From: a virus | DNA: 64,000 nt | IMG/VR virus record: IMGVR_UViG_3300033182_000538 | Coordinates: 102,989-166,988 of that record | Direction: 5' to 3' (one strand) | Shown here: positions 24,035 to 64,000 of the stretch, piece after piece | Position numbering within the stretch: the stretch's first letter is position 1 | How the letters are laid out: the number at the start of each line of letters is the position of its first letter | The notes under the pieces: generated by a model | What the model was told of the DNA's origin: nothing | What the model saw: the letters and a program-made list of their open reading frames with translations, nothing else | The model's database searches: none | Program-made: the position numbers and the translations under genes

Positions 24035-24066
24035 CTAATATACGAAATTATTCCTTAATATCCAAA
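24035..24066 (-). promoter_or_regulatory. Early promoter of the family A polymerase-like gene
   Basis: On the minus strand TTTG (24063-24066), 20-base spacer, TATATTAG (24035-24042). Five bases follow before the GTG start codon, so the mRNA should begin at the initiator codon. Spacer sequence (GATATTAAGGAATAATTTCG) is close to that of the gene 45 promoter. Confidence 0.8.
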
Positions 24067-34597: not shown

Positions 34598-34620
34598 TTA
34601 TATTCTCCTATTATCTCTTT

Positions 34621-34644: not shown

Positions 34645-36978
34645 TTATCCTTCAGGAAAAGCTGCGCCAGTTGGAAGTACGTTGAAATCAAGTACAATGA
34701 ACTCAGCAGTTTTAGCTGGTTGGATAAAAATCTCACCTTTTAATATATTTCTATCAATCACATCTGGCGTGTTGTTTGTTTCATCCATAATCACTCTAAA
34801 TGCGTACAAACCTTGTCTTTGTTGTACTGATTCTAAGTAAGGATTAACAATCGACAAGAATCTATTTCTTGTAGCAGCCGTGTTATTTTCAAAGATTAAG
34901 TATCTTGAAGATGATGCGATGAATTTTTTCAATGCAATCAACAATCTTCTTACATTGATTCTATCTAATGCCGATGGTTTAGCTTGAAGTGTTTTCTGAC
35001 CGAATACCGTAGCACCTTGTCCAGGGAACGTAGCGATTGGGTTAATACGACCTTCATACAAGTCATCTCTCTCAGCGTGAGTCAATCTTGTTTTTACTTC
35101 AATTACGTTTGGTAAACCACCTCTATTCAAACCGGCAGGTGCGAACCAAGGTTCAGCAACTGAGTCGTTAAATGCGATAACACCAGGAATTACAACACTT
35201 GGTGGTACCCAGACTGGTTTGTTTTTATCAGTATCTAAAATCTTAGCCCAAGGGTGGTAAGTAGCAACGTAGTTAGAATCAAACGAAGTTAGTGAGTTTT
35301 TCACAGTAGCGATTGAATCTTGGTAGCCACCTGCATCCATTACATAGAATGTATCTTGTCTATCTTCACACATATCTTTAGCGAATGTAGTAACTGAAGA
35401 GTGTAGTCTATTGATTACACCAGGAATTACTAACATATTGATATCAAACTCATCAGGGTTTGAGATAGCGTTGATAGCTTTTCTATAAGCAACAGTACCA
35501 GCAGCGGTAGCCGAAGAACAATCTAAACCTTGTGTGTTACCAGCAACAATATCCGTACCCACGTTGATTACTCTATTTGGCTCCCATCCATCGAATCCAC
35601 CTTGGAATGGTACTAAGAATTTCTTATCATCTACGCCAGAAGTTAATGTGATAGGTGACCCATTTGATTCACAATCAGCCAAGTCGAAATCGTTACCAAC
35701 AGTTTCGGTGTTAGCATCTGGAGTTGGGTATAAGAAGTTTAAGTTATCAGTATTCGTAAAGTCAAAGTTGTAACCTAAGAATACTCTTTTATTGTATGTA
35801 TCGTTCAATGATTGAGATACAGCGTATGTTGGACTTGGTAATGTGTGACCACTATGTAATGGTGAAACTACTGCGCCGAATCCGAATGGAACTAAAGTTG
35901 AATCAACCGAACCATTTTTAACATCATCAGTTACCTCAACTCTAATGTGAGCCGAAGCGTTGTTGTAATCACCATTAGTAGACAACTTACCATTTGCGTC
36001 AACAGTAATATATTTGTCACCAATTACTCTTGAAATAAAGTTTGGTGAGTTAGGGTCTAAGTTAAGACCTGTATACTCTTCTACAATGTTTGGTCTCAAG
36101 TCAGTATCTTGTACACCTTGACCAAAAATTGAGTTAGGAATCTTAGAAGTATCTACTCTTCTTATGATAAGACTGAATGAACCATATTCTGAGCCAGGAA
36201 CATCAGAAGCTGGTTTTACATCTCTAATACCTACTTTGAATTCGTAGTTAGTAGCGTTACCGTGAGATAAAGTATGTACTTTAAATAAGTTAGTAGCATT
36301 ACCACCCACTTTTTGTGATTTAATCCAAGGAGTAGAAGCGTATGAATAAGCTTTTGTGTAATCAGTATCGTATTGTTCAACTGAAACAAGTACTTGTTCG
36401 CCAGTAGCGAAAGATGCTGATTGGAATGTGTTAAAGTTTAAGTATGTATACGCGTCTTTAGAAGATTTAGGAGAGTATCCAAATGTTTTAGTAATGTAAT
36501 TAGCATTTGTTGGATTTAAAGATGCAGATGTGTTTGTCACACTAACATCACTACCTGTTAACGTAAGTACAAATGATGATGCACTTGCAACTGAGTCAAT
36601 TGATGATGAATCAAAATCACCAGTTGTAGAGGTAGTTGTTGGGTGAAGTACAGCAGCTACTTTTTGACCTTGTGATGATGAAATCACTAAAGCCAATGGT
36701 TTAGCCGTATATCCTTCTTGTCCTAATACTCTTACGATATTAGCTGTTCCAGCTTCTTCTAAATAAGATTGAGCGGTATACGGAAGGTATGAATCTTCAG
36801 TAAGACCACCAAACTTTTGTTGGAATTCTTGGAAAGACTCTACTTGAGTTGGTACAAACGCAGGGCCTTTAATACTTTGTCCTATAAGAGCCGCACCAAT
36901 CTCACCAATACCTTGTGGTAAGAATGAGAGGTCTTTTTCTCTTGTAAATACACCTGGACTTACAATTCTTTCTGCCAT
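34645..36978 (-). CDS. 18: Contractile tail sheath protein (gp18-like)
   Basis: A 777-residue sheath subunit (T4 gp18 is 659). The N-terminus SPGVFTREKDLSFLPQGIGE, ALIGQSIKGPAFVPTQVESF and FGGLTEDSYLPYTAQSYLEE is the standard sheath start. The C-terminal domain has YEGRINPIATFPGQGATVFG, QKTLQAKPSALDRINVRRLL and SVQQRQGLYAFRVIMDETNN, the conserved part that holds the tube and joins neighbours. The extra length sits in the central surface-exposed domain, which varies among phages. AGGAG precedes the ATG and a late-type motif lies at 37011-37027. Confidence 0.97.
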   Translation of the reverse strand: MAERIVSPGVFTREKDLSFLPQGIGEIGAALIGQSIKGPAFVPTQVESFQEFQQKFGGLTEDSYLPYTAQSYLEEAGTANIVRVLGQEGYTAKPLALVISSSQGQKVAAVLHPTTTSTTGDFDSSSIDSVASASSFVLTLTGSDVSVTNTSASLNPTNANYITKTFGYSPKSSKDAYTYLNFNTFQSASFATGEQVLVSVEQYDTDYTKAYSYASTPWIKSQKVGGNATNLFKVHTLSHGNATNYEFKVGIRDVKPASDVPGSEYGSFSLIIRRVDTSKIPNSIFGQGVQDTDLRPNIVEEYTGLNLDPNSPNFISRVIGDKYITVDANGKLSTNGDYNNASAHIRVEVTDDVKNGSVDSTLVPFGFGAVVSPLHSGHTLPSPTYAVSQSLNDTYNKRVFLGYNFDFTNTDNLNFLYPTPDANTETVGNDFDLADCESNGSPITLTSGVDDKKFLVPFQGGFDGWEPNRVINVGTDIVAGNTQGLDCSSATAAGTVAYRKAINAISNPDEFDINMLVIPGVINRLHSSVTTFAKDMCEDRQDTFYVMDAGGYQDSIATVKNSLTSFDSNYVATYHPWAKILDTDKNKPVWVPPSVVIPGVIAFNDSVAEPWFAPAGLNRGGLPNVIEVKTRLTHAERDDLYEGRINPIATFPGQGATVFGQKTLQAKPSALDRINVRRLLIALKKFIASSSRYLIFENNTAATRNRFLSIVNPYLESVQQRQGLYAFRVIMDETNNTPDVIDRNILKGEIFIQPAKTAEFIVLDFNVLPTGAAFPEG

Positions 36979-37010
36979 TATTTTCTCCTAAATTAAATCT
37001 TTGGGTTTAC

Positions 37011-38748: not shown

Positions 38749-39912
38749 TTATCCTATGTAAATTGGTCTTGGGACTCTATTAAGTGTTTCTTCTAAATAT
38801 TCAGATTCTTCTTTTTTAGCTTCCATCAATGCTCTACGAGAAGTAGATTCTAACATCTCAGTTAATTGAGTCATCAATGTTTCCTTTTCAGCAGATGCTT
38901 CGTTACGAAGGTCAGACCCATCAAGAGTTACATCAGCGCCAGGAATTGGAATCGCTGAGAACTTAGCTCTTACAGCACCCAACATCTCTTTAGCCAATGC
39001 TAATGTGTATCTTGCAATCCATTGTTTTCCAGCTGAGTTAATTTTATTATATTCTAATCTTCCAAATGGAGCGTTTGATAAATCACTCACAACATTTGAA
39101 GCTGCGATTGGTGAATTCACTTCTGAATCTAATGTATAATCGAAGTATACTTTACTACCTTCATCACCGCTCGTTGGTTTTGGGAATAATCTAATTCTTT
39201 GACCATCAACGTGGAAACCAAATGATGATTTTCTAATATGGTCATTGAACTCAATAGCTTGAAGTCTTAAAAGGTCATCAAACATTGGTTGCATCATAAA
39301 TGATACGCCCGGTGAATAAGCTCCCCATCCAAATGTTTGTAACATTTGTTGTGAACCAAGACCTGTACCTACGAATGGGTCAAAGTATCTAATGATTGCC
39401 GGTGGTTGAGTGTGGTATACTCTACGAAGAGTTACACCATTTGAAACTGAACCACTTTCTAAATCAACAACATCAGCATTACCCAAATCATAAATTTGTT
39501 GACCACCAACCATTTGGAAAGAACCTGTATAGACAGTAACCTTACCACCACTCAATGCCTCAGTACCATAATCTTTTGCGATATTTACTAAGTTTTGCAT
39601 ATTGTTGTTCATATTGGTATTTGATAAATCCAAATCCAAAGATGAACCTTGAAGTGATAATAAATTTTCCTTAGCTCTATATTGATTCACTTGAGATGAA
39701 TACTCATTTGTTGCTTCTTCAAAACAAGCAAAGAAATTGATGTCTTGAAGTTCAACATCAACGATTGGGTATCCTAATCTCTTAGCACACCATTCAGCTA
39801 CTTTCGGTGCGTCTGATTGGAATTGTGTATCCGTATCAAAATATCCGAAAGGAGTTGATGAACCTGTGACAAATGAACCAGAACCTGGCCATATTGGAAT
39901 ATTTACTGACAT
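38749..39912 (-). CDS. 13: Neck/head completion protein (gp13-like)
   Basis: A 387-residue protein. APKVAEWCAKRLGYPIVDVE, LQDINFFACFEEATNEYSSQ, IIRYFDPFVGTGLGSQQMLQ and VDGQRIRLFPKPTSGDEGSK resemble the gp13 family of T4-like phages, which forms the neck ring between portal and tail. T4 gp13 is 309 residues. The C-terminus is a long helical region with many Glu and Arg (KETLMTQLTEMLESTSRRAL). A strong ribosome site AAGGAGAT lies before the ATG, and a late-type motif at 39926-39941. Confidence 0.82.
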   Translation of the reverse strand: MSVNIPIWPGSGSFVTGSSTPFGYFDTDTQFQSDAPKVAEWCAKRLGYPIVDVELQDINFFACFEEATNEYSSQVNQYRAKENLLSLQGSSLDLDLSNTNMNNNMQNLVNIAKDYGTEALSGGKVTVYTGSFQMVGGQQIYDLGNADVVDLESGSVSNGVTLRRVYHTQPPAIIRYFDPFVGTGLGSQQMLQTFGWGAYSPGVSFMMQPMFDDLLRLQAIEFNDHIRKSSFGFHVDGQRIRLFPKPTSGDEGSKVYFDYTLDSEVNSPIAASNVVSDLSNAPFGRLEYNKINSAGKQWIARYTLALAKEMLGAVRAKFSAIPIPGADVTLDGSDLRNEASAEKETLMTQLTEMLESTSRRALMEAKKEESEYLEETLNRVPRPIYIG

Positions 39913-39925
39913 TTACATCTCCTTT

Positions 39926-39947: not shown

Positions 39948-41624
39948 TTACCTTTCCAAATTATTCATAAAAGAAACTACGATATATCGTGTTCCATCGG
40001 TGGTAGCTCGTGCTCCGTGCTTATGAGTAATATTTCCAGGATGTAGACTAGCATACCCTATTGGTGCCTTTACTAATTGCTTTTGTCTTCTGAACCAAGT
40101 ACCACCCCCTTCATACTCATCTAAGTCTGAAAGTTGTACCAAACACGTTATGTCTGACTTATCGTGGTGGATTGATAAATGACCTTGAGCAGTTGGTGTA
40201 TATTTAGCTAAAAAGTTTTCAGATGTTAAATTATCCCAACCAGGTCCTTCCAATGCCCACATATAAACTCCAAGTGGCATTACATATTCACGAAGAACTT
40301 CCATATAAATATCCTGCATTCCAATTGTTTCTAAAATCATATCGGTTGTAGGATAGTTTTCGTGTCTATCAACAGTCCAAGAGTTTGAGTGTTCGGCTTC
40401 TTCACGAATCATTCTACAAAAGTCGGCTGTAAATAGTGGGAAATTAAAACAACTATCAAATGGCTCATCCACTATCAATTCCCATTCTTTTGTTCTCATA
40501 GCATATGCTATAAACTTACGCTTCCACTCATCTGGGTTATCATAGTAACTATATAATTCAGGATGTAATCTATTTGATGATTCTATCATATCAATCCATT
40601 CGTTGTATCTAATTGACCAATCTTGATTTCTAGCAAATTCTTCAGCTAAAGTTAAAAGTTTAGAAGATATATCATCTCGCTCATTTAAGAATAAATAAGA
40701 TGATACAATTGCTTCGTTCATTGCGTTTGTTGGTAAGGTTGAATCTACCAAAGTACTTCTACCACCCAATAGTGACACTAAATTACCCGTATCTGAAGAT
40801 ATTATCTTTACACCACCCATCATCATTTCAAGGGCTGTGATACAATATGTTTCATCATACTTTGATGGGTAAATCCAATACTCGGATGATTTAATTTGTC
40901 TATATAAGTCTCTTGGTGACAAACTTCCTAACCAATTAACATCATCTAAATCTTTTTTATAGTCATCATACCACTCCATAGCGTATGGTGGTGATGCTAC
41001 CCATAAAGTTAGTTGAGGATTTATACTTTTTAGCTTAGGCCAAATTTTTAATAAGTTTTCAAGACCTCTATCTGCTGCTGATGTGTATATTACTTTATTT
41101 TTATATTTTTCTTGGTCAATTTCATCAAAATCAGATACACTTATAGCATTTCCCAATACTTTCACTCGTGTGGGAGTAATATTGTAAGTATCACACAAAA
41201 TATTCTTTTGATATTCTGATACTGCTATAAAGTTTGTGATTCTATTGTCTTTTAGGTAGTCTAATCCATTATTTGGTAACATTTCACCATTATACCACCC
41301 ATAAAACTCATTATTATGTATCCAAAAATAAGATTTGTCATATGTAATACCAAAATCATCCAATAGAGGTAAATAATGAATATAATTACTTGCGATTACA
41401 ACATCAAAGTGAGTATTACCCTCTAAATCGGAATACTCCGTGAATGTAACACCAGAATCATAATCGGAATTAACATCTCCCGATACAATTACCTCGTGAC
41501 CATTTTGTGCAAACTCTTCAGCTAACTTTATAACACAATATTCTGAACCACCAAGTCCGTTTTCTAACCAATATTGTTTATTTATTGATTCTTTTTGATA
41601 ACCTAAACAAAATAATACTCTCAT
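39948..41624 (-). CDS. Fusion of GT-B glycosyltransferase and PLOD-type lysyl hydroxylase
   Basis: A 558-residue two-domain enzyme. Residues 1-340 are a GT4-like GT-B glycosyltransferase: NGLGGSEYCVIKLAEEFAQN, FIAVSEYQKNIL, KVLGNAISVSDF, YTSAADRGLENLLKIWP, and the donor-site YDETYCITALEMMMGGVKII with the E-x7-E spacing roughly kept. Residues 380-558 are a 2OG-Fe(II) dioxygenase that follows animal procollagen-lysine hydroxylases almost block by block: IHHDKSD (H486, D488), DEYEGGGTWFRR, LHPGNITHKHGA (H536) and GTRYIVVSF (R546, ten residues after H536). In animals such enzymes hydroxylate Lys in X-Lys-Gly of collagen, and LH3 adds sugar through a second domain. Two collagen-like genes rich in X-Lys-Gly lie just upstream in the transcription order. 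The enzyme acts in the infected cell before assembly if this is right. Confidence 0.93.
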   Translation of the reverse strand: MRVLFCLGYQKESINKQYWLENGLGGSEYCVIKLAEEFAQNGHEVIVSGDVNSDYDSGVTFTEYSDLEGNTHFDVVIASNYIHYLPLLDDFGITYDKSYFWIHNNEFYGWYNGEMLPNNGLDYLKDNRITNFIAVSEYQKNILCDTYNITPTRVKVLGNAISVSDFDEIDQEKYKNKVIYTSAADRGLENLLKIWPKLKSINPQLTLWVASPPYAMEWYDDYKKDLDDVNWLGSLSPRDLYRQIKSSEYWIYPSKYDETYCITALEMMMGGVKIISSDTGNLVSLLGGRSTLVDSTLPTNAMNEAIVSSYLFLNERDDISSKLLTLAEEFARNQDWSIRYNEWIDMIESSNRLHPELYSYYDNPDEWKRKFIAYAMRTKEWELIVDEPFDSCFNFPLFTADFCRMIREEAEHSNSWTVDRHENYPTTDMILETIGMQDIYMEVLREYVMPLGVYMWALEGPGWDNLTSENFLAKYTPTAQGHLSIHHDKSDITCLVQLSDLDEYEGGGTWFRRQKQLVKAPIGYASLHPGNITHKHGARATTDGTRYIVVSFMNNLER

Positions 41625-41625
41625 A

Positions 41626-42918
41626 CTACTCTACTATATAATTTAATACTTCTTCTCTATCAAAATACCTACTTCTATCCATCCAAGCTTGAAGTTGGTA
41701 TGACTTATTGTTTTCTTCATCCCAAGACCAATCAAATTTACCCAACTCTTGAATCCGTTCGTGAATATATGGGTCATAATAATCTCTAATTAGTCTAGCT
41801 CTACGATTTATATCAACTCTATTGTTGTCAACTGTAGAATTACCATCATTATATTGTACATACAACATCTTTTTTAAGTGAATCATTCGAGTTTCTAAGA
41901 ATGTCTTTACAACTAACTCATAATCATCAGCTACTGATATATTTCTACTATGTCCTCGTATCTTATGATAAGTATCTCGATTCCAAACTCTACAATGATT
42001 TGGCATTCCGATATTAAATCGTATTGTTTTTGGATTTATTTCAGGATAATGATGTGTTAACCATTTTTGCCCATCAAATTCTTCCCAACTATGACCTCCA
42101 TACGACCAAACAAATCCATTTTCAGGATGTGCGTACCAATCATCACCAATTCTACCATATTGTCTTGGTGACCCATCGGCTTCAATCTCAGTTACATCAG
42201 TATAAACAAACCCAGCGTCTGGATATTTCTTACTTGCGTTTAAAACATCTTCCAAACAAGTTGAAATAAGGACATCATCGTGGTCTAATTCAAATAACCA
42301 CTCACCATTACACAACATCGCCGCTCTATGTTTGACCTCGCCAACATTTCCATTAGAAGTTGGACTCATTTTATAGATATTAACTCTATAATCAGTCTCA
42401 GCTATATCTTGTAAGTACTCCCAAGTTAAATTATGACCTTCGGGTGAATCATCTACAACAACCCATTCCCAATTTTCATAAGTTTGATTTACTAAACTTT
42501 CATATGTTCTAAAAATCCTCTCAGTTGTTTTGTACGCTGGAGTAAATACTGATAATATTGGTGTGTCTTTATCACCATAAACTTCTTTTTGTGATTTACA
42601 AGACCAAAATGTTGACTGACACACTACATCATTAGCCAAAATGTTGTCGGCTGGGATACTATCATATGATACTATCTTACTTGAAATCATCGTGTGGTGT
42701 CCCATTTGTAAAATTTGATTAGGATACTCACCTATAACAAGTATTACATCAGGTCTATGTTTAGCAAAGTGTTTTTTAAAATCAATTGAAGATTCATATG
42801 AGTATAAAATTATTTTTTCATATAAGTTTTCCTCAAAATAAACATCTGATATTAGTTGGTGTTCACCAAACCTATCCCAACCATAAACCAAAGCCGTTGG
42901 AAGTCCTGTTTTTCTCAT
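41626..42918 (-). CDS. GT2 family glycosyltransferase in the collagen island
   Basis: A 430-residue protein. Residues 1-115 form an extra domain (TALVYGWDRFGEHQLISDVY, RPDVILVIGEYPNQIL). From about 118 it is a GT-A enzyme: LSVFTPAYKTTERIFRTYES, NWEWVVVDDSPEG, the metal site FELDHDDVL, YTDVTEIEADGS, a catalytic-base-like VADDYELVVKTF, and MPNHCRVWNRDTY. It is placed one base before the GT/lysyl hydroxylase fusion and three bases after the 2OG hydroxylase, so all three are made together from a message that follows the collagen genes. It may add the first or a further sugar to hydroxylated residues; this is inferred from context. Confidence 0.9.
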   Translation of the reverse strand: MRKTGLPTALVYGWDRFGEHQLISDVYFEENLYEKIILYSYESSIDFKKHFAKHRPDVILVIGEYPNQILQMGHHTMISSKIVSYDSIPADNILANDVVCQSTFWSCKSQKEVYGDKDTPILSVFTPAYKTTERIFRTYESLVNQTYENWEWVVVDDSPEGHNLTWEYLQDIAETDYRVNIYKMSPTSNGNVGEVKHRAAMLCNGEWLFELDHDDVLISTCLEDVLNASKKYPDAGFVYTDVTEIEADGSPRQYGRIGDDWYAHPENGFVWSYGGHSWEEFDGQKWLTHHYPEINPKTIRFNIGMPNHCRVWNRDTYHKIRGHSRNISVADDYELVVKTFLETRMIHLKKMLYVQYNDGNSTVDNNRVDINRRARLIRDYYDPYIHERIQELGKFDWSWDEENNKSYQLQAWMDRSRYFDREEVLNYIVE

Positions 42919-42921
42919 AAT

Positions 42922-43524
42922 TTATCTATATGGTTCACCACCCACCCAAAGTACAAACGATTTTCGAATACCCTTGGTTACAGGTTTTACTCTATGTAAA
43001 TAAAATGATGGGAAAATCACAGCAGCTCCTTGATTTTTAGGAACTGTAATATGTCTACCTATGTTGAATTCTAAATCACCACCTTCGTAATCTTCGGATG
43101 ATGACAATTGAACAGTTACTGATATTTTTCTTTGATTTTGAATATCTACACCACAATCCATATGCCATTCATAACCACCTTCATTAGTTCCATAGTACTC
43201 AGTATATTGAATTTTTTCTTCCATAGTACTTAAATCAAACTTCCACATAGTATCGTTAGCTTCAGTAATCATATTATGTAGTTTTTCATAAACCCAAGCC
43301 CACTCTAAATTTTGTGGACACCATTTTATTCTTGATTTTCTATAATCTGAAACTTTTGCCGAATCTCCTTCGCCAGTTACAGCATCTTGAAATTCTAAGT
43401 TGGATGTCATTTGTTCAATGAGTACTAATTCTTGGGGAGTGAATCCATTTTTGAACCAATAATAATCATTGAAAGTTACATCTTGCCTATATGAGTTACG
43501 GCTAAATGAGAATTTTTTATTCAT
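42922..43524 (-). CDS. 2OG-Fe(II) hydroxylase next to collagen-like gene
   Basis: A 200-residue dioxygenase of the prolyl 4-hydroxylase/PKHD type. Iron ligands are in EWHMDCG (H121, D123) and FYLHRVKPV (H177), and R187 lies ten residues after the distal histidine (KGIRKSFVLWV). DYEGGDLEFNIG and QGAAVIFPS are typical core strands. It is the first gene after the collagen-like gene at 43563-47300, 38 bases apart, and has a late-type motif in that gap. Prolyl or lysyl hydroxylation of the fibre is the natural hypothesis. Because the collagen repeats contain little Pro in the Y position but much Lys, Lys or other residues are as likely as Pro. Confidence 0.9.
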   Translation of the reverse strand: MNKKFSFSRNSYRQDVTFNDYYWFKNGFTPQELVLIEQMTSNLEFQDAVTGEGDSAKVSDYRKSRIKWCPQNLEWAWVYEKLHNMITEANDTMWKFDLSTMEEKIQYTEYYGTNEGGYEWHMDCGVDIQNQRKISVTVQLSSSEDYEGGDLEFNIGRHITVPKNQGAAVIFPSFYLHRVKPVTKGIRKSFVLWVGGEPYR

Positions 43525-54479: not shown

Positions 54480-57400
54480 TTATACTCCACCCGAACCACT
54501 TGATGGGCTTAGTCCAAGGTTAATATTAGTTGTAGATGAAACTTGATTAGCCGCACCTACCATAAACCAAGTTGTATACCCAAAGTGACTTGTTACTAAG
54601 TCAAATTGATTAATTTCTGATGTTTCGATTGTATTTGTACCATCAATAGTTGTTCCATCAGTACCAACTTCTAATACATATTCTCCAGCAGTAGAACCAC
54701 CATAACTATCACGAGTACTTGTTGGTACACCCGACATTTGTGACCCACTTGGCATAATTAATACAAAGTGAACACTTGAGTTACGAGAAATAGTACCACT
54801 ACTACCCATACCCCTTAATACATCGTGAACATTTGTTCCACTACCCGATGCTAGTAACGTAGCAGTTCGTGTTGAACCATAGGTATAATCAAATGAACTA
54901 CTACCAATTTTGTTATCGTTAATAATTGCATCAACAAATCCTTGATTACTAAATGGTGTAGCAACTGGTGGAGTTGAACTATCTTCGCTACTAATACCTA
55001 CTGAAGTATTGTAAGCTGCGTTGTTAAATCCAACATCATAAAGATATACTTTACCATATAATTCAGTATCAGGCGCGAATACGTTAACAGTAACTGACCC
55101 ACTACCTAAGTTACCATACTGGTCTTGGAATGTAATATCCGTTGTAATTGTATCACCACTACCAGATGTTGTTGAACTTACATCAACATTCATTGACAAC
55201 CCACCATTACTATCAACTGCGATTGCTGAATTTGATGATGTGAATGATGAAACTGCTTGTGAGTTGTAACTTGGTGAGTATGATACATTTAAGTCGGAAT
55301 CACTACCATTACCTTCACCAGTAACATTTTGTAGATTTGTACCACTTACAGCATTTGATATAATAAATGAGTTAGTATCACCTGTCAAAGTACCCACTGT
55401 TGATTGTGCGATGGTAAATGTATGTTCTTCCGTGTTTGTTCTAAATCCGTGAGTATCTTCAATACTCGCCGTAATAGCGTATGTTGTAGACCCACTTAAA
55501 TTTTCAGTAGCTTGTACTAAGTAAGTAGCACCACTACGTTTAGAGTTTAATTGACCACTTGGGTCAGTAAACGTAAATACATCGTGATTTATACTATCAC
55601 TCTCAACATCACTAAATGAAATTGTTGTCAGAGTACTACCACTTCTTGCACCATTGGTATTTAGGTTAGCCGATGTATTTGTGAATATGATATCTGGAGC
55701 ACTATTTGGTTCTACTTTAATTGTGTAATCAAAGTATTGTTTTGTAGTTTCAAATGAGTGTTCTGATGCGGTTATCGCTAGTGCGATAATACTTCCTGAT
55801 GTATAGATAGACCCACTAATATTTTGATTTGCTTGTAAGTATGTAGCAGAGCCAGTAACATTACTTGCTTTAATCATATCACCAGTAGATGAAACTTCCC
55901 ATCGTTGTATCACAGAACCACCGGCTGATGTTAATTGGGCAAATGTACCAGTTAGTCCTAAAATACCATTTTCTTTTCTAACATAGTAGTTTTCACCAAC
56001 GGATTCCATAATGTGTAATGAATCCCAATTGTCCGTAATTGATGCAGCTAAATCATCTGCGATAGGAATTGTAATCAAACCTGTATCAGTAGTTGTATTA
56101 AATGCGTCAGTCACCGTTACTTCATAAATGTAATTATTGGCAACATCTGAATTTAGGAATACTCCAATCTTTCTTGTAACCACACCCGTAGAACTTACTT
56201 GGAATGGGTCACGTGCGGGATTGTACAAATCACCAGCACCAGCATCCAAACTTGCTTTGATATCAGCGCCACCATCTAAGTTTACTTCTTGTAAAGTAAA
56301 GTTAGAGAATGTGATTGTATTTGTCTCAGGGTCAGTTGCACTAATTGTACCAGCATTTGCACCATTTGATGAATTCTCATTTACACCGCTAAGAGTTTGA
56401 TTATTTACACTTGGCCCAATGTTATCAACAACTGCGATTTGGAATGGTAAATATTTTATTGATTCAATATCATCACCATCTTCATAATGTTGGTCACTTG
56501 CTGTCAATACAAATTCGTATTGAGTTATATCTTCATAATCTAACGAAGCCGTTAATTGATTTAATTGAACATATGTTGATTCAATGTCTAATGAGAATTT
56601 ATTAGTAAAGTCAGTTGATAACGAACCGGTACCAATTGTGATTGTATCACTTTCATCATCCGTAAAGAATACTCTTGCTTTGTTACTACCTGCGGCTGAG
56701 TCTTCATTTAAAGATGATGTGAATGTTGTAATTACTGAACCAGCGATTGAAACTTCTCTCCACTTTGGAGCAGTATTTGGATTTACTCTAATGTATATTG
56801 TTTTTGAACCAACACCATTAAACGTATCTACCGCTTCTACTAAGAATGGATGTGAACCTGAACTTGGTGTGTTGTCAGTATTCATAGAAGCCGTTGATTT
56901 AACATTTAAGGTAACAGCCCCACCACTTGATATTCTAAAGAAATCATCAGTATATGCACTTGATGTTCTGAATGTTACCGATTGACCTTCAGCATCAGAA
57001 GCGACAACTGTTCCAACTGATGAACCACTTACTTCAAATTCTTCGATTGTGAATCCGTGAGATGTAATTGATGGTACAGTATTTGGGAAGAATACTTTTT
57101 CAATAAAGTTTGATAATGACCCACTTGTTCCAAAGTTTACATTATAAATACCACTTGGCAAGTCGGTATTAGAAACAGTTCTATTTCCATCAAATTCAGA
57201 ACCACTAATTTCAACAAGACCACTAGCTGAATTTATTGTGATATCAACGCCACCGGCGAACACTTGGTCACCAGTAAATCCTGAAGCAGCAGCCGATGCT
57301 GATACTTGAGCTGAACTTGATACCACACCATTTGGTAAACTATCTACAACTTGTGTTGAACTTGATATTGTACCACTTGGTAAACTTGATATTACTTGAG

Positions 57401-59066
57401 CCGATGATGAAATCGTACCATCTGGAATAGAACTACCACCCGACCCAAATCCAGCAGTTGCCGCTGATGCGGATACAGCCGTTGTAAAGTGAGTAGATGA
57501 TGTATCTAATGTTAGTGTAGCGTCTCCGCTACTTGCACCACCTTCAAGACCAAGACCTGCGTTTACAGCGGTAATATCACCAGAACCACCACCTGATAAA
57601 GCTTCGGCAAGAGATGCCGAGACATTAGGGAATCCTGTGATACCCAATCCGCCTGTAATTTCTACTTTTAGGTCAGTACCACCATCGCCAGTTTGCATTC
57701 TAATTCGTTGGAGGTTACTGCCACTATCATAATATTCAAATACTTTAGTACCACCATTATTAGCTATACTAACACCACCCACACCATCACTTCCACCAGC
57801 ACCAACACTACTCTTACCTCTAAGAGATAATTGACCGCCTGTTTTTGTAAAGGTTATGTGTTGATATCCATCAGCCGCCATCCCAAACCCTTTAGTAGGG
57901 AAGACTATATTGTTTCGGGTTGTGGATACATTATCCTCACCAAATGCTGTGATTCTACCATCTACGCGTAAGCTACCTGTTATTTCAGCTGAACCTGTAT
58001 GTGGGAATGCGTTTCCTGCCCCACCACTACCAAATCCAGCTTCTGCAACCGAGCGAGATACCTCAGTATCAAAGTTTGTGATACTTGAAGTTGTAATTGG
58101 AAGTATTTGGTCTGAGCTTGAAATAATACCTGCAGCTAAACCTGCAATAGCAGTTGCTGAAAGTGAACCTGAAATATCATCTGCAATTTGAGCTGATGAA
58201 CTTAATATGTTTGAAGGAACATCTGAAATATTATTATATGATACTTGAGCAGAAGCACTTATAGTGCCATTTGGTAAATTTGCTATTGTTTGTGCCGAAC
58301 TCGATACAAGTCCACTTGGTACATTAGTTAGACTATTGAAGTCATTTGTTCCACCACCACTACCAAATCCAGCTTCTGCAACCGAGCGAGATACCTCAGT
58401 ATCAAAGTTTGTGATACTTGAAGTTGTAATTGGAAGTATTTGGTCTGAGCTTGATACAAGACCACTTGGTAATTGTTCAGATGAACTTAGAATACCACTT
58501 GGTACGTTGGTAAGGTTGTCATAATCAATAGAACCTGTTAAAGATGTTGCGTGTAATGAACCTGTTACTTGTAAATCTGCATTTACAAAATAGTAATCAG
58601 ACCCAGTAGACCAAATAGATGAACCACCTCCACCACCTCCACCAGCAAGTGATGAAAGGTCAACTGAATTACCATCTGAAATAGTAAGATTATTGTTTAC
58701 TGAATTAAAACTTAGTGTTTGTGAATCTGAGCCAGTACTATCAGTTGCGTTTTCTAATGTAGTTAATCTCGAAGAAACCGAACCCGAATCGGTTGGGTAA
58801 GTTACTTCTCTAAATCTATTATTAGCTGTTATAGAGTTTTTTTGGAACGCAGAAATTACGTTTGGTTTATTTGCTATTTGAGTATAACTTATCTGAGCTG
58901 ATGATGATATTAATCCCGTACCATCATAACTAACTTGGTCAGATGATGAAATAACACCACTTGGTAAATTAGCTATAATCTGCGCAGATGATGAAATAAC
59001 ACCATTTGATGCGGTAATTTCTCCAAAAAATGACCCACTAAATGAACCTGTATAGTCAAATGACAT
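54480..59066 (-). CDS. Giant fibre/adhesin with cadherin-like domains, 1528 residues
   Basis: The longest protein in the window. Residues 1-330 repeat a unit like LPSGVISSSAQV or LPSGLVSSSDQ, a shaft-like pattern, with a glycine-rich break (SLAGGGGGGGSSIW). Residues about 630-1330 hold a chain of cadherin-like domains, visible as repeating SVNENS/NENSSNGANAGTISATDPE, SDAEGQSVTF, LDYEDITQYEFVLTASD and IRVNPNTAPKWREVSI. Calcium ligands of the DxE/DxD type recur. Residues 1340-1528 are a separate end domain (DTELYGKVYLYDVGFNNAAY). An internal 101-base duplication lies in the shaft. It probably mediates attachment to the host or to surfaces. GAGGAG precedes the ATG. Confidence 0.85.
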   Translation of the reverse strand: MSFDYTGSFSGSFFGEITASNGVISSSAQIIANLPSGVISSSDQVSYDGTGLISSSAQISYTQIANKPNVISAFQKNSITANNRFREVTYPTDSGSVSSRLTTLENATDSTGSDSQTLSFNSVNNNLTISDGNSVDLSSLAGGGGGGGSSIWSTGSDYYFVNADLQVTGSLHATSLTGSIDYDNLTNVPSGILSSSEQLPSGLVSSSDQILPITTSSITNFDTEVSRSVAEAGFGSGGGTNDFNSLTNVPSGLVSSSAQTIANLPNGTISASAQVSYNNISDVPSNILSSSAQIADDISGSLSATAIAGLAAGIISSSDQILPITTSSITNFDTEVSRSVAEAGFGSGGAGNAFPHTGSAEITGSLRVDGRITAFGEDNVSTTRNNIVFPTKGFGMAADGYQHITFTKTGGQLSLRGKSSVGAGGSDGVGGVSIANNGGTKVFEYYDSGSNLQRIRMQTGDGGTDLKVEITGGLGITGFPNVSASLAEALSGGGSGDITAVNAGLGLEGGASSGDATLTLDTSSTHFTTAVSASAATAGFGSGGSSIPDGTISSSAQVISSLPSGTISSSTQVVDSLPNGVVSSSAQVSASAAASGFTGDQVFAGGVDITINSASGLVEISGSEFDGNRTVSNTDLPSGIYNVNFGTSGSLSNFIEKVFFPNTVPSITSHGFTIEEFEVSGSSVGTVVASDAEGQSVTFRTSSAYTDDFFRISSGGAVTLNVKSTASMNTDNTPSSGSHPFLVEAVDTFNGVGSKTIYIRVNPNTAPKWREVSIAGSVITTFTSSLNEDSAAGSNKARVFFTDDESDTITIGTGSLSTDFTNKFSLDIESTYVQLNQLTASLDYEDITQYEFVLTASDQHYEDGDDIESIKYLPFQIAVVDNIGPSVNNQTLSGVNENSSNGANAGTISATDPETNTITFSNFTLQEVNLDGGADIKASLDAGAGDLYNPARDPFQVSSTGVVTRKIGVFLNSDVANNYIYEVTVTDAFNTTTDTGLITIPIADDLAASITDNWDSLHIMESVGENYYVRKENGILGLTGTFAQLTSAGGSVIQRWEVSSTGDMIKASNVTGSATYLQANQNISGSIYTSGSIIALAITASEHSFETTKQYFDYTIKVEPNSAPDIIFTNTSANLNTNGARSGSTLTTISFSDVESDSINHDVFTFTDPSGQLNSKRSGATYLVQATENLSGSTTYAITASIEDTHGFRTNTEEHTFTIAQSTVGTLTGDTNSFIISNAVSGTNLQNVTGEGNGSDSDLNVSYSPSYNSQAVSSFTSSNSAIAVDSNGGLSMNVDVSSTTSGSGDTITTDITFQDQYGNLGSGSVTVNVFAPDTELYGKVYLYDVGFNNAAYNTSVGISSEDSSTPPVATPFSNQGFVDAIINDNKIGSSSFDYTYGSTRTATLLASGSGTNVHDVLRGMGSSGTISRNSSVHFVLIMPSGSQMSGVPTSTRDSYGGSTAGEYVLEVGTDGTTIDGTNTIETSEINQFDLVTSHFGYTTWFMVGAANQVSSTTNINLGLSPSSGSGGV
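58021..58121 (-). repeat. 101-bp direct repeat inside the giant fibre gene, copy 1
   Basis: Identical to 58354-58454, 333 bases (111 codons) apart, so the reading frame is kept. Encodes part of the SSDQILPITTSSITNFDTEV shaft unit. Confidence 0.93.
58354..58454 (-). repeat. 101-bp direct repeat inside the giant fibre gene, copy 2
   Basis: Identical to 58021-58121. The identity at DNA level in an otherwise diverged repeat array indicates recent gene conversion or duplication. Confidence 0.93.
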
Positions 59067-59090
59067 TAAATACTCCTCACAAACTTGGTT

Positions 59091-59129: not shown

Positions 59130-59792
59130 TTATTCATAAGAAAATAACAATTTTAAAACTTCATCTAAAGACTCGTGTCTATGATTATCTTTCAAAACAA
59201 TGTTATAAACATATTCTGATTCTTTTAATTTATGAACTTCGTGTACTGCCGAATCGTTATTGAATTTTAAATCAATTTGTTGAGGGTCTCCACAAAGTAT
59301 CATACGAGAATTCTTACCTAATCTACCCAATACCATAGCTAATTGCTGTTTGGTAAGATTTTGAAACTCATCTACTATAACTATTGAATTATCAAAAGTT
59401 CTTCCACGAAAATGAGATAAGGATACCAACTCAATGGATTCTTCCTTTTCCATCTTTTCTAAAATGTTTGGTTTATTGTAAACCTTTCTCATATTAGAAC
59501 GAATTGGAACTAACCACGGCTCCATCTTTTCTTCTAATGAACCCGGTAAGAATCCATTATCTTCATTTGAGACCGTTGGTCTTGTTATAACAATTTTATC
59601 TACTTCTCTTTTGAAGAACGAATCCAAAGCAATCTGAACCGCTAGTAGCGTTTTACCACTTCCTGCTTTTCCTAAAATAAAATTAAATGGATGTTGTCTG
59701 ATTTCGGTTTTTGCTAATTTTTGTTCTTCCGATAGAGTAATTGAAAATCTGATGTTTCCTTTTGGAACTCTTTTCTCTGTATTTTCAGGCAT
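59130..59792 (-). CDS. phoH: PhoH-like ATPase
   Basis: A 220-residue P-loop ATPase. Walker A is GKAGSGKT (41-48), Walker B VIVDEFQNL, and FRGRTFDNS, ILCGDPQQIDL are the other PhoH family signatures. PhoH proteins are widespread in marine phages, with suggested roles in RNA handling or phosphate stress, but the function in phages is unproven. It lies between the capsid gene terminator and the giant fibre gene, with its own late-type motif at 59825-59842 and AAGGA before the ATG, so here it is expressed late, which is unusual for an enzyme. Confidence 0.95.
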   Translation of the reverse strand: MPENTEKRVPKGNIRFSITLSEEQKLAKTEIRQHPFNFILGKAGSGKTLLAVQIALDSFFKREVDKIVITRPTVSNEDNGFLPGSLEEKMEPWLVPIRSNMRKVYNKPNILEKMEKEESIELVSLSHFRGRTFDNSIVIVDEFQNLTKQQLAMVLGRLGKNSRMILCGDPQQIDLKFNNDSAVHEVHKLKESEYVYNIVLKDNHRHESLDEVLKLLFSYE

Positions 59793-59824
59793 ATTGTTAT
59801 ATCCTTTTGTTTTACAAGTCTATG

Positions 59825-59901: not shown

Positions 59902-61494
59902 TTACCCTAAAGTATCCAAACCTGCGCAGTATACTTTACCATAGAACTCACCTCTCACCATTTGCTTAGCGTAACGAGTCATTACACCTTTTCTTGGTTG
60001 GAAGTTAGTTGGGTCGTATACTAACGGAGTCATAATTAACGGAATGTAAGGAGCGTAAACAGCACCAGTTTCAAGGAATTGTGAACCTTTGAAACCTAAT
60101 AAGATTACGTTCTCTTTCATATAAGGATTCTTGTACACTTGGTATCTGTTAGCGAATGAACCTACTTGAGAAACACCCATAGCAAATTGCATTTCGTTAC
60201 CTGTACCAGCAGCAGTAAATCCTGAGATAGATTCTAACACTGTAGCAACATCAGGAGATACTACCATAAAGTTAGCACCACCTCTCATTGTCTTAGAGTG
60301 GATTTGGTTAGAAACTCTTTGTAACACTGTACCAAGAGTCTGGAACCATTGTTGTTGAGTGTATCTAGCAGCAGTACCTGAAGCAGCAAATGCTGAACCA
60401 TTCCACTCATCACCTACTTTAGCAGACCAGTGACCTTCAGTCAACGCATTAGACATTAACATATCTAAGATTTCTAAGTCAATCTCTTGTGAGATGTACT
60501 CTGATAACATAGAAGTTAATTCAGCTTCAGCATCGATTGAGTGGTATGCGTTCAAGTCTTGCGCGAATTCTGGTGTCCACTGTGCTTTTAACTTTCTTGT
60601 CTTAGCAACGATTGGCACACTTCTTAATTCTACGTTCAACTCTGGAATACCTAAGTCAGTACCACCAGAAGTAGTATCTTCGAAATCACCTCTTGTGATA
60701 TCAGTTGGTTGTTTTTGGTAGTTAACTACAATATTAGTAATTGAGTCAGACCCTTCAACAACGAATCTTACATTTGAACCTACAATAGCAGTGTATGCTG
60801 GGAAGTAGTTAGTAATGTTCGAACCTGAAATTTCAAATGCTCTTACACCTTCTGAATCGTAACCTGACAATGAAGATACAGGCACAGACACTGTTCTTAA
60901 AGTAGCATTAGCCATTGAAGCTGAGAACTTAGAATCGTAGTTTACAATACCGAAACCAGCAGCTGAACCTAGGTCGATAGCACCTGATACAGGAGTAGCG
61001 ATAACTGCAGATGAAGTTTCGTTGATTGTGTAACCAAATCTACCAGCACCATAAAGACCTTCTACAGCGTTTGAACCAGTTTCAGTAATACCGAATACTG
61101 AGTCAGTTTGTGAATCTTTACCTGCGCCAGTTTCAAAACCAGGTTGTGCAGTACCATACTTGAAGTCCAAGTAGAATACAAGACCTGATGGTAAGTTCAT
61201 TGGTTGTACAGAAACGAATTCTTTAGCAGCGATTTCGCTGAAAATTCTTCTTACCAATGGTAAAGCTACACCAGCCCACTCTTCTGAGTTTGCAGATGTA
61301 CCAGTTTGTGAAGCCTCTTTTACCAACTCTCTAGCTTGGTTTTCAAGAAGAGTAGCAATAGAGCTTCTTTCGAATTCAGACTCGATACCTTCTAAAAGGC
61401 CAGTCTGTGTCCACTTATCTACCAATCCTTTTGTCTCTTCAGACATTTTTCTTTGGAAACCGGCAGACTCGTTTAATAATGAATTTGTATCCAT
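59902..61494 (-). CDS. 23: Major capsid protein (gp23-like)
   Basis: A 530-residue protein (T4 gp23 is 521 before cleavage). GFQRKMSEETKGLVDKWTQT, LLEGIESEFERSSIATLLEN and SEEWAGVALPLVRRIFSEIA are hallmark segments of the N-terminal region, and AKEFVSVQPMNLPSGLVFYL starts the HK97-fold core. RKLKAQWTPEFAQDLNAYHS, YISQEIDLEILDMLMSNALT and GANFMVVSPDVATVLESISG follow in T4-like order. The propeptide cleavage site should lie near residue 60-70, after an acidic residue, as in T4, but I cannot place it. AGAGGAAA precedes the ATG and a strong terminator follows the gene. Confidence 0.98.
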   Translation of the reverse strand: MDTNSLLNESAGFQRKMSEETKGLVDKWTQTGLLEGIESEFERSSIATLLENQARELVKEASQTGTSANSEEWAGVALPLVRRIFSEIAAKEFVSVQPMNLPSGLVFYLDFKYGTAQPGFETGAGKDSQTDSVFGITETGSNAVEGLYGAGRFGYTINETSSAVIATPVSGAIDLGSAAGFGIVNYDSKFSASMANATLRTVSVPVSSLSGYDSEGVRAFEISGSNITNYFPAYTAIVGSNVRFVVEGSDSITNIVVNYQKQPTDITRGDFEDTTSGGTDLGIPELNVELRSVPIVAKTRKLKAQWTPEFAQDLNAYHSIDAEAELTSMLSEYISQEIDLEILDMLMSNALTEGHWSAKVGDEWNGSAFAASGTAARYTQQQWFQTLGTVLQRVSNQIHSKTMRGGANFMVVSPDVATVLESISGFTAAGTGNEMQFAMGVSQVGSFANRYQVYKNPYMKENVILLGFKGSQFLETGAVYAPYIPLIMTPLVYDPTNFQPRKGVMTRYAKQMVRGEFYGKVYCAGLDTLG

Positions 61495-61517
61495 TTTTAT
61501 TTCCTCTATTTTTAATT

Positions 61518-62585
61518 TTACTTAATTAGACCGGCCAATTTCTTAAATCGGTCAGCCACATCATTACCTTCTGAGATTATAGATTTGCTAGGAGCAGTTG
61601 ATGTAGTTGGTTTTGAAGCCAAAGACTCCTTAACAACTGTTTTAGGTTTTCTTGCAACATTTAAGTTTTCACCTAATGTAGCGAATACCAATTTAACTTC
61701 TCTTAAATTAGCAGCTCTATCAAAATTCTCAATAACTTTCATTTTTTGTGACTCATTCAAATCAAAAGTTCTGAATACTTTATTAGTATAAAGAAGTTTA
61801 GCGTTCAAAAGATTTACTTCGTTAATAGTGTTTCTTAAAGATTCGATAGTCTTGTAAGCTTCTTCTAACTCAGCTTCTTTTTCTTCGTTATAACCTTCTT
61901 CTTTTACTTCTTCTTCAGATACTTCTTCTTCTTCAGACATCTCTTTCAAAGTTGAGATGATTTCTTCTAAAGAAAGTTCTTCATCATTCTCTACTTCAGA
62001 TGAATCAGCAGCATCATCACTTGGTTCAGCGTTTTCACCATCACCAATATCAGATGAGTCTAATTCTTCTTCGATAGATTCTTCTTCATCACCTTCTTCA
62101 ACTTCTTCATCTTCTTCTTCGTTCAAAGAAGCTTCAAGTTCAGCGATTACTGATTCAAGGTCGAGTTCATCCTCTTCCTCTTCATCCATCATCTCTTCAA
62201 CTTCTTCTTCTTCGTTGTAAGTTTCTTCAACTTCTTCTTCAGACTCTTCATCGTGCATTTCCTCTTCGTGAGACTCAATTTCATCAGAAGCGATATCTTT
62301 TACCTCTTCTTCTTCATCGTTGTCTAACTCTTCTTCAACCTCTGCTTCTTCTTCAGAAACTTCAGCGTCATCACCTTCGTGTGAATCTTCAGCCGCCATC
62401 ATTTCTTCCATTTCTTCTTCAACTTCATCTTCTTCATCTAACTCTTCAGCTAGTTTGTGAGAAAGCATTGATTGGAGTTTTGGAGTAAAAGCCTCTTCAA
62501 GAGCCATCTTAGCGTTTGCCAATGCAGTTTCTTTAACCGCTTTAGCGTCAGCAATAGCCTCTTTTAATAAATCAGATTTAGCCAT
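61518..62585 (-). CDS. 22: Prohead scaffold protein (gp22-like)
   Basis: A 355-residue extremely acidic protein: residues about 45-235 are nearly all Glu, Asp, Ser and Met (for example ELDEEDEVEEEMEEMMAAED). It has a helical start (LLKEAIADAKAVKETALANA) and a helical C-terminus with YKTIESLRNTINEVNLLNAK, LLYTNKVFRTFDLNESQKMK and FKKLAGLIK, the part that is recognisably gp22-like. It directly precedes the capsid gene, as in T4. It forms the core that shapes the prohead and is then degraded. AGGAG is seven bases before the ATG. The leader holds two hairpins. Confidence 0.92.
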   Translation of the reverse strand: MAKSDLLKEAIADAKAVKETALANAKMALEEAFTPKLQSMLSHKLAEELDEEDEVEEEMEEMMAAEDSHEGDDAEVSEEEAEVEEELDNDEEEEVKDIASDEIESHEEEMHDEESEEEVEETYNEEEEVEEMMDEEEEDELDLESVIAELEASLNEEEDEEVEEGDEEESIEEELDSSDIGDGENAEPSDDAADSSEVENDEELSLEEIISTLKEMSEEEEVSEEEVKEEGYNEEKEAELEEAYKTIESLRNTINEVNLLNAKLLYTNKVFRTFDLNESQKMKVIENFDRAANLREVKLVFATLGENLNVARKPKTVVKESLASKPTTSTAPSKSIISEGNDVADRFKKLAGLIK

Positions 62586-62616
62586 TACAAATCTCCTAAA
62601 TTATTGTTTTGGACAG

Positions 62617-62684
62617 TAAGATTATTGGGAATCTTAATAGTGTGTTACTATTTCGTAAGTGACCACTCATTAGATGGGAGTGGT
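62617..62684 (-). other. Two hairpins in the leader of the scaffold gene
   Basis: Perfect seven-pair stems TAAGATT/AATCTTA (62617-62636) and ACCACTC/GAGTGGT (62662-62684) in the 152-base gap before the scaffold gene. Neither has a U tract on the mRNA side, so they are more likely stability or processing elements than terminators. Confidence 0.5.
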
Positions 62685-62689
62685 ATTTA

Positions 62690-62707
62690 TTCTACAATAA
62701 GTATATA
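62690..62707 (-). promoter_or_regulatory. Possible late-type promoter of the scaffold/capsid operon
   Basis: Minus strand TATACTTATTGTAGAATA, a weaker relative of the late motif, in the gap between the bS21 homologue and the scaffold gene. Confidence 0.35.
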
Positions 62708-62738
62708 ACAAAAATCAAAAACGATAAAGTGTTTACTA

Positions 62739-62978
62739 TTATTGTTCTTTGATTCTCCTTATGTACTCTCTACGAATCGCATCGTTTCTTTGTTTTCTTC
62801 TACGAGTCGTTGGTTTTGTGTATTCTCTTCGGTCTTTTAGTTCTTGGATAACTCCTGATTCTTTTAGGTTTCTTTTCCAAAAACGTAATGCCGCTTCGAT
62901 ATTTCCATTGATAACCTTAGCTCCCTTAAATACGCCAGGTATAATCATAGATTCTTTTTTTGTTTTTTTTCTTGCCAT
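62739..62978 (-). CDS. rpsU: Ribosomal protein bS21 homologue
   Basis: A 79-residue basic protein that matches bS21 closely in order: VINGNIEAALRFWKRNLKES, GVIQELKDRREYTKPTTRRR, KQRNDAIRREYIRRIKEQ. The E-x-ALR-x-x-KR, G-x-x-x-E-x-x-x-R-x-x-Y-x-KP and basic tail are the family pattern; an extra 15 or so N-terminal residues (ARKKTKKESMIIPGV) precede it. bS21 binds the small ribosomal subunit near the anti-Shine-Dalgarno sequence. I chose the ATG at 62978: the alternative GTG at 63005 lies inside the upstream terminator stem. No Shine-Dalgarno sequence precedes it. It sits among late head genes. Confidence 0.88.
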   Translation of the reverse strand: MARKKTKKESMIIPGVFKGAKVINGNIEAALRFWKRNLKESGVIQELKDRREYTKPTTRRRKQRNDAIRREYIRRIKEQ

Positions 62979-62995
62979 ATAGTGTAGTTTAAAAA

Positions 62996-63027
62996 TAAAA
63001 AACACCTACCACTAATTGCGATAGGTG
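62996..63027 (-). terminator. Intrinsic terminator between head genes and bS21 homologue
   Basis: Minus strand CACCTA ... TAGGTG with a 13-base loop followed by TTTTTTATTTTT. The gene at 63062-63232 ends 35 bases before it. Confidence 0.75.
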
Positions 63028-63042
63028 CTTATAAATATAAAA
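63028..63042 (-). promoter_or_regulatory. Late-type promoter motif before the bS21 homologue
   Basis: Minus strand TTTTATATTTATAAG, so close to the terminator that a transcript started here would begin inside the stem and avoid termination, allowing separate expression of bS21. Confidence 0.45.
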
Positions 63043-63061
63043 ATAAATTTAATCAAATTAG

Positions 63062-63232
63062 TTATTTTTGAATTCCTTCTGATAAATCATCTAATAGGTC
63101 TTTCATATCTCCGAAAGCTCTACCAAATTCTTTTTGTGTTTTAGCGTCAAGTTTTCTAATGTTCTTAATGTGTTTTTTCACTAATTGTGAAAAGTCAACT
63201 GAAATGTCTTGTAAGATATCTGCTTTGTCCAT
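63062..63232 (-). CDS. Small head-region protein, 56 residues
   Basis: A small gene: ATG at 63232 overlapping the stop codon of the previous gene (TAATG) and TAA at 63062. The product, MDKADILQDISVDFSQLVKK then NIRKLDAKTQKEFGRAFGDM and DLLDDLSEGIQK, is helical and charged. In T4 small prohead core proteins (gp67, gp68) are encoded upstream of the scaffold gene, so a similar role is possible, but there is no clear sequence match. It is followed by a terminator. Confidence 0.72.
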   Translation of the reverse strand: MDKADILQDISVDFSQLVKKHIKNIRKLDAKTQKEFGRAFGDMKDLLDDLSEGIQK

Positions 63233-64000
63233 TATTTCTTCACCTTACCTTTTTCGATGTCTCTCTGCAATTCCTCGCCAGCACCAAGTACATACATCAT
63301 AGCAGTTTTAATATCAACATTCATATACTTAGAAATTTTTCTAACTGCCATCATTACGATTCTTTTTTCTTCAGTAGTGTATCCTTCTACGATAGAAGTA
63401 AGTTTCATTGATTTGTTACCTTCTACTTCTTCAAAGTAAAGGTCAGACATAATGTCTTTTAGTTTTGGGTTGTTGATATCAAATTTATATTTTTCCAAAG
63501 CTCTTCTTGCTTTCAAAGCGCTCTTTACTGGAATTACAAAGTATCCTTTTTTCTCACCACCCATTTTCTTAGATAACTTAACGGCCTGAATTTTCATTCC
63601 TTGACCCATTACGTTACCATTCTTTGGATTAACAACAGTGTACTTTTCTGATTCGTTTACTACAACTTCCATTAATCCGATTGCTGTATCACCAACAACT
63701 CTTTCAGCACCATCTGCGTATTTGTTATTTAGAATTGCAATCTTAGCTGGCTTATCAATTATATACATTGGTATCATATTAGTACCAAATGAATACTTGA
63801 TTCCATTCTTTTTCAATTCCTTACCAATATCCATAAATGATTTAGCACCTTTTACGATATCAGCAAGTTTGTCTAACATAGCATCGTGCTTACCTTCGTT
63901 TACTGATTCATCTTTTTCAAGTTCATCGTAAATTTCTAATCCTCTTTTCTGAACATATGATTTAGATTGATTTGGTACAAACGGAATTATTCTTGCTAAT
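63232..64000 (-). CDS. Unknown protein, 5' end outside window
   Basis: The frame is open to the right edge of the window, so the true start lies beyond 64000; an internal ATG at 63879 is not needed. About 255 residues are visible: PFVPNQSKSYVQKRGLEIYD, DELEKDESVNEGKHDAMLDK, SFGTNMIPMYIIDKPAKIAI, GYFVIPVKSALKARRALEKY, and a helical end YMNVDIKTAMMYVLGAGEEL. It resembles no T4 head gene I can name; it is not the gp21 protease. Its position upstream of the scaffold gene suggests a head or morphogenesis role. Confidence 0.7.
   Translation of the reverse strand, partial: LARIIPFVPNQSKSYVQKRGLEIYDELEKDESVNEGKHDAMLDKLADIVKGAKSFMDIGKELKKNGIKYSFGTNMIPMYIIDKPAKIAILNNKYADGAERVVGDTAIGLMEVVVNESEKYTVVNPKNGNVMGQGMKIQAVKLSKKMGGEKKGYFVIPVKSALKARRALEKYKFDINNPKLKDIMSDLYFEEVEGNKSMKLTSIVEGYTTEEKRIVMMAVRKISKYMNVDIKTAMMYVLGAGEELQRDIEKGKVKK

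Follow-up and report, generated by a model that had tools for sequence, protein, structure and literature searches.

The window analysed here is a stretch of 64,000 nucleotides, taken from a phage record of 166,988 bp (bases 102989-166988), in which the minus strand carries nearly all genes. The phage has the gene set of a T4-like (gp23-type) myophage, with a gp23-type capsid, tail sheath, baseplate, UvsX, a DnaB-like helicase and a DNA polymerase, and it matches the T4-type families phrog_138, phrog_23, phrog_219 and phrog_97. Among its structural genes lies the gene of a ribosomal protein, bS21, to which an earlier note on this DNA had drawn attention: the ORF at 62739-62978 (minus strand; 79 aa, ATG start at 62978) matches the profile Ribosomal_S21 (PF01165) over positions 4-54 of 55 with E=7.7e-14, over the cut-off, as well as phrog_21469 'ribosomal protein S21'. 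It is flanked on the same strand by a protease-position gene upstream (63232-63879; 215 aa, assigned by position and synteny only, with no PHROG match) and by the acidic scaffold and capsid genes. Mel-JY01 possesses bS21 at the equivalent site. In nearly all bS21-bearing relatives the gene lies 1.3-2.8 kb upstream of the major capsid protein gene (MCP), and it is co-directional with the structural genes in the focal phage and in 85/85 bS21-bearing loci. The focal protein begins with an N-terminal extension of about 15 aa (MARKKTKKESMIIPGVFKGAKV...), and the alignment of the focal clade places an Arg where Flavobacterium johnsoniae has Tyr54, so that the aromatic residue is absent. A search of the focal phage (G000) for other platform or initiation genes gave no match to bS18 or S1-domain genes. 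Elsewhere in the structural block, glycosyltransferase and 2OG-Fe(II) oxygenase-like genes are inserted (39948-43524, minus strand), none of the three with a good Shine-Dalgarno (SD) site.

The use of SD sites differs strongly between the early and late genes of this genome. Genes were called by coding potential with the first ATG taken as start, and SD information was not used; an SD was counted where the strongest uninterrupted pairing to the 16S tail reached E≤-6.5 kcal/mol at a spacing of 4-11, with internal ATGs as the null. The late blocks comprise the contig below 34.5 kb and above 127.8 kb, the early block is the rest, and both classes were predicted from what the genes encode, where they lie and which type of promoter they have. 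Over the 166,988-bp contig, SDs stand at 27.9% of 219 genes compared to 8.9% of 3,021 internal ATGs, and they are found at 33/61 genes (54%) of the late blocks versus 28/158 (18%) of the early block (odds ratio 5.5, p=2.2e-7). Such a genome-wide count is the check that the earlier note itself proposed; the note's observation on SDs and bS21 is confirmed as real and stronger than first stated. Homologues of the focal genes repeat the contrast in four close relatives (G001, G003, G004, G005) and in G008, with 47-69% late versus 15-31% early.

The strong sites at individual late genes named earlier were likewise recovered, all on the minus strand: AGGAG at 62593-62597 for the scaffold-like acidic protein gene (61518-62585), AAAGGAG at 39919-39925 for the head-tail adaptor gene (38749-39912), AGGAG at 36985-36989 for the tail sheath gene (34645-36978) and at 34605-34609 for the tail-tube-position gene (34109-34597), and GAGGAG at 59073-59078 for a 1528-aa gene (54480-59066). 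To these can be added AGAGGA at 61502-61507 for the major capsid gene (59902-61494; phrog_138, E=2e-73) and AAAGGA at 59802-59807 for a PhoH-like gene (59130-59792), while the 253-aa gene at 18083-18844 has AAAGG only. Most SDs of the phage score between -7 and -11 on the scale used here. The same genes differ between relatives with and without bS21: the scaffold gene has an SD in 80/85 versus 33/77 loci, the MCP gene in 82/85 (96%) versus 22/78, and the PhoH gene in 51/64 versus 0/31. The terminase and portal genes of bS21-bearing phages, on the other hand, mostly lack SDs where MCP and scaffold are high, so that bS21 is not the sole late gene of the SD-less kind.

The expectation that early genes are SD-less holds in part. 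Genes directly behind promoters of the form TTTG-N19/20-TAnnTT[AT]G have an SD in 0/14 cases in the focal genome and in 3/58 over six relatives; however, the early class as a whole is not uniform, given the 18% that do carry one. The promoters themselves, which had been read as Bacteroidota-like, stand out clearly: 14 sites occur in intergenic upstream regions where 0.2 are expected from other spacings (p=1.6e-21), the spacing peak is common to most longer bS21-bearing relatives, and the tested stretch of T4 has no promoter of the TTTG form. Promoters of the TTTG-N19/20-TAnnTTTG build are those known for the sigma factors of Bacteroidota, and their presence supports a Bacteroidota host without proving one. 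Early promoters of this type lie on the minus strand of the window at 957-988 (TTTG-N20-TATATTAG), 6444-6475 (TTTG-N20-TATGTTTG), 15887-15917 (TTTG-N19-TATATTTG) and 24035-24066 (TTTG-N20-TATATTAG). Over several sites between 957 and 24066 the extended consensus is approximately TTTGGATA-N-TTCGTATATTAG, often with TTAACATT some 10 nt upstream. A search for hosts through shared contigs returned only seven stray MAG contigs of mixed taxonomy.

As a separate observation, Mel-JY01 (PP395634.1; L100, L103-L105) is recorded as a Microcystis phage, and it possesses 15 sites of the form TTG-N20-TAnnTTTG, all with exactly N20; its capsid gene groups inside relatives with such promoters. Judged from its promoters and capsid, the virus may in truth infect a Bacteroidota that was present in the culture.

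The leader of the bS21 gene is unlike that of its late neighbours. Its start context, TTTTTAAACTACACTAT-ATG, contains no SD, and bS21 is SD-less in 71/85 bS21-bearing phages, compared to scaffold and MCP genes with SDs in 94-96%; the other 14 are those of the Mel-JY01 clade together with L090/L097. Within the focal clade this leader consists, in this order, of TATTTATA, a 12-bp hairpin, a T-run and about 20-25 nt to the ATG. The motif TATTTATA (63030-63037, minus strand), a candidate phage late promoter element, is enriched upstream of late genes (12/61 versus 6/158 early genes, p=4e-4), and the genes behind it have SDs in 51/105 cases versus 3/58 behind host-type promoters (p=2.7e-9). The hairpin (63000-63030, minus strand; dG -17.6, z=-5.35) was revealed by folding from the late motif onward. 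It is conserved and covarying within the focal clade: across 15 different leaders, 8/12 of its pairs change on both sides and 97.8% of cells are paired. The bS21 leaders reach -13 to -18 kcal/mol, whereas the remaining motif-bearing late leaders average -1.9. No leader match was found in Rfam 15 at E≤1 within 62600-63300, and a strict exact-stem search for intrinsic terminators upstream of bS21 showed no enrichment (6/85). Candidate roles of the hairpin are a 5' stabiliser, a read-through terminator or an autoregulatory element.

A comparison across relatives extends these observations beyond a single genome. Capsid-based collections of IMG/VR loci yielded 242 different capsid proteins; a class could be given to 163 of them, 85 with bS21 and 78 without; the latter class required at least 5 kb upstream of the MCP to be present. 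In the 85 loci with an extended bS21, SDs stand at 59.8% of 1,352 co-directional genes (chance 9.8%), and in the 78 loci without bS21 at 11.5% of 1,275 genes (chance 10.8%), including only 8/75 genes of the protease region. The position of the motif forms a sharp peak at -14 to -9 in the former and is nearly flat in the latter. None of the 39 longer records of phages without bS21 (up to 297 kb), searched whole, contains a bS21 over the cut-off elsewhere. On the capsid tree, well-supported branches show five or more changes in the presence of bS21; SD use follows it in about four of five independent contrasts and never in the opposite direction, and losses of bS21 nested in bS21-bearing clades are accompanied by the loss of SDs. 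The loci are not independent, and with five contrasts significance is out of reach: a sign test on 5-6 independent gains and losses gives p about 0.06-0.25, which is not significant. The capsid tree is therefore suggestive, and no more, of SD use tracking bS21.

Several clades complicate the picture. A bS21-less clade with frequent SDs on MCP and scaffold demonstrates that SDs can be selected without a phage bS21. In the bS21-less clade L244-L315 the SDs stand mainly on the scaffold and capsid genes, and the neighbouring genes are without. The Mel-JY01 clade uses SDs in the early genes of the genomes examined and in bS21 itself, so that no switch is visible there. L042/L316 are the sole case among the surveyed extended-type loci in which bS21 is present but SDs are rare, at 6% (1/18); their bS21, about 4 kb upstream of the MCP, has a 7-residue extension without the N-terminal motif PG-x4-V-x-V, and when L042 was searched for an alternative anti-SD (ASD), the enriched k-mers were all A/T-rich and none resembled an SD. 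Conversely, L090/L097 have a bS21 without extension, with Leu/Ile at position 54, yet use SDs.

A second kind of phage bS21 helps to narrow down which property of the protein goes with SD use. Searching with the F. johnsoniae bS21 (query checked against 7JIL) yielded 21 loci in which bS21 is unextended and retains an aromatic residue 54; SDs occur there at 0-10%, and the structural genes, where identifiable, lie on the strand opposite to bS21. The presence of bS21 alone is thus ruled out as the cause, and SD use follows the extended bS21 rather than bS21 as such. The loss of Tyr54 can be rejected as well: extended bS21s have a mean SD frequency of 0.58 with an aromatic residue 54 (47 loci) versus 0.62 without (37 loci), and among the 30 best-scoring bS21s from 198 Bacteroidota genomes, a sample biased to high scores, 27 have Arg54 and none has an extension. 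This contrasts with the description of Tyr54 as uniquely conserved in Bacteroidia (PMC9976891). The rpsU genes of the same Bacteroidota sample (L530-L559) often start with GTG or TTG behind very strong SDs, the reverse of the phage bS21 genes. Among the features compared, the N-terminal extension of bS21 is the best discriminator of SD use. The core of the earlier note, in which late SD-bearing mRNAs and a phage bS21 belong together, thus finds support in the comparative association; the mechanism it offered, an altered tail that unmasks the ASD, does not as a general one, given that extended phage bS21s use SDs equally with and without the aromatic residue 54 and that many of the sampled Bacteroidota proteins have Arg54 too.

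What the data show is the gene, the SD contrast, the promoters, the leader and the association of SD use with bS21 type across relatives. From these we infer the following course of infection, and with it the host species, the late timing, the entry into ribosomes, the unmasking of the ASD and the part played by the extension. In the ribosomes of a Bacteroidota host, the pocket of bS21, bS18 and bS6 would conceal the ASD at the tail of the 16S rRNA, and early genes, with their host-type promoters and SD-less leaders, would be translated by these normal host ribosomes. Late in infection, the extended phage bS21 would be made from its SD-less leader with the 5' hairpin, which unmodified ribosomes could read; a switch gene has to be SD-less if it is to be translated before the ribosomes have begun to read SDs. 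In the 30S subunits the phage protein would then take the place of host bS21, which is loosely held there. The extension would lie near the ASD/mRNA path and free the ASD or stabilise SD-ASD pairing, and late mRNAs with SDs would be preferred over SD-less host mRNAs. We consider it probable, if by no means secure, that the extended protein replaces host bS21 late in infection and either frees the ASD or acts as a clamp on SD-ASD helices. For the fuller proposition, a two-phase programme in which an extended viral bS21 turns SD-blind Bacteroidota ribosomes into SD-reading ones and the switch gene itself remains SD-less behind a conserved hairpin, we see the case as evenly balanced.

Published experiments bear on this mechanism in both directions. 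In F. johnsoniae, bS21, bS18 and bS6 together hide the ASD, and initiation on the rpsU mRNA, with its strong SD, is faster when ribosomes lack bS21 or the C-terminal part of it (PMC9976891). Chen et al. 2022 place the N-terminal helix of bS21 over the ASD/mRNA path (PMC9723584), and a phage bS21 has been found to enter E. coli ribosomes (PMC6375957). However, the effect of bS21-free ribosomes in F. johnsoniae depends on SDs of great strength, below -13 kcal/mol (PMC9976891), which counts against the proposed mechanism given the -7 to -11 of the phage, although the latter values come from a simpler scale. The one phage bS21 tested, from a pelagiphage, reduced in vitro translation by E. coli to about 5% (PMC6375957), which counts against it likewise.

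The main competing explanation is a confounding by host: phages with an extended bS21 may infect SD-reading lineages, Bacteroidota or other, and bS21-less ones SD-blind Flavobacteria, with bS21 acting as a general booster of initiation. A Flavobacterium host is known only for the relative immuto, which has neither bS21 nor SDs, the Mel-JY01 clade uses SDs throughout, and residue 54 varies among Bacteroidota bS21s, all of which would fit such a confounding. Yet early genes are SD-poor in the very genomes whose late genes are SD-rich, while 59% of T4 early and middle genes have SDs; Bacteroidota-type promoters are shared by bS21-bearing phages and the bS21-less relative G087 (3% SD); and nested losses of bS21 also lose the SDs. 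We therefore consider this explanation unlikely, though it deserves to be taken seriously. Less likely still, and in our view improbable, is that ribosomes devoid of bS21 read the late SD mRNAs, host bS21 being displaced, degraded or unreplaced, and that the phage protein restores normal initiation or blocks host recovery. The better performance of such F. johnsoniae ribosomes on strong-SD mRNA (PMC9976891) agrees with this idea, as does the retention of the ASD-stacking aromatic residue in many phage bS21s, but it leaves unexplained both the link of SDs to extended rather than host-like phage bS21 and the lack of SDs in bS21-less phages. That SDs are, as in T4, simply a sign of high expression in late genes, with bS21 an independent late accessory gene and the association due to shared ancestry, is very doubtful: it agrees with the high SD use of MCP and scaffold against terminase and portal and with the few independent transitions, but not with the mostly SD-less state of the same genes in bS21-less relatives (PhoH 0/31, protease region 8/75) nor with the joint loss of SDs and bS21 in nested clades.

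The replacement of host bS21 by an extended phage protein, our preferred reading, has partial precedents. That phage bS21 could favour phage mRNAs is already published (PMC6375957, PMC7162821, PMC9723584), as are N-terminal extensions (PMC7162821). In Chen et al. 2022 (PMC9723584), phages with predicted Bacteroidetes hosts carry bS21 beside terminase, portal, protease and capsid genes, like the focal phage, and the authors propose that the protein is built into Bacteroidetes ribosomes and gives late phage mRNAs an advantage. Their bS21, however, lies on the opposite strand and has an aromatic residue 54, whereas the focal bS21 is co-directional and N-terminally extended with Arg54 and is accompanied by SD-rich late genes; the portions of that study consulted contain no SD analysis. 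Loci L501-L521 resemble the type of Chen et al. as described there, and have no SDs. The huge-phage rpS21 of Al-Shayeb et al. 2020 (PMC7162821) has N-terminal extensions as well. They are rich in basic and aromatic residues, and binding to RNA with a preference for phage mRNA has been suggested for them; a link to SD use of phage late genes was not found in the sections consulted.

The pelagiphage HTVC008M (Mizuno et al. 2019, PMC6375957) likewise possesses a bS21, shown there to incorporate into ribosomes, but its host is alphaproteobacterial and its bS21 is 54% identical to that of the host. F. johnsoniae has specialised ribosomes that lack bS21 (McNutt et al. 2023, PMC9976891), and in this bacterium the state of bS21 likewise decides SD reading; only the host rpsU has an SD there, and the focal phage is the mirror image, with SDs at many late genes and none at bS21. 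Flavobacterium phage immuto (NC_055915), with the same T4-like structural module and a capsid 55% identical, lacks bS21 and is essentially SD-less genome-wide (3%). In the open-access literature we found no report of a link between bS21 and SDs in phage late genes, of two functional classes of phage bS21 or of the leader hairpin; the SD link, the two classes and the leader appear to be new, with priority left unclaimed since the search covered open-access sources only.

These observations bear on two open questions, namely what use bS21 is to the many aquatic phages that have it and whether specialised ribosomes discriminate between mRNAs. They provide a testable rule: late genes should be SD-led where an extended phage bS21 occurs alongside Bacteroidota-type promoters, and genes should be SD-less where bS21 is host-like or absent. 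If the relationship is causal, it would represent a viral reprogramming of mRNA recognition through the swap of a single ribosomal protein, and would offer a handle on the occlusion of the ASD in Bacteroidota.
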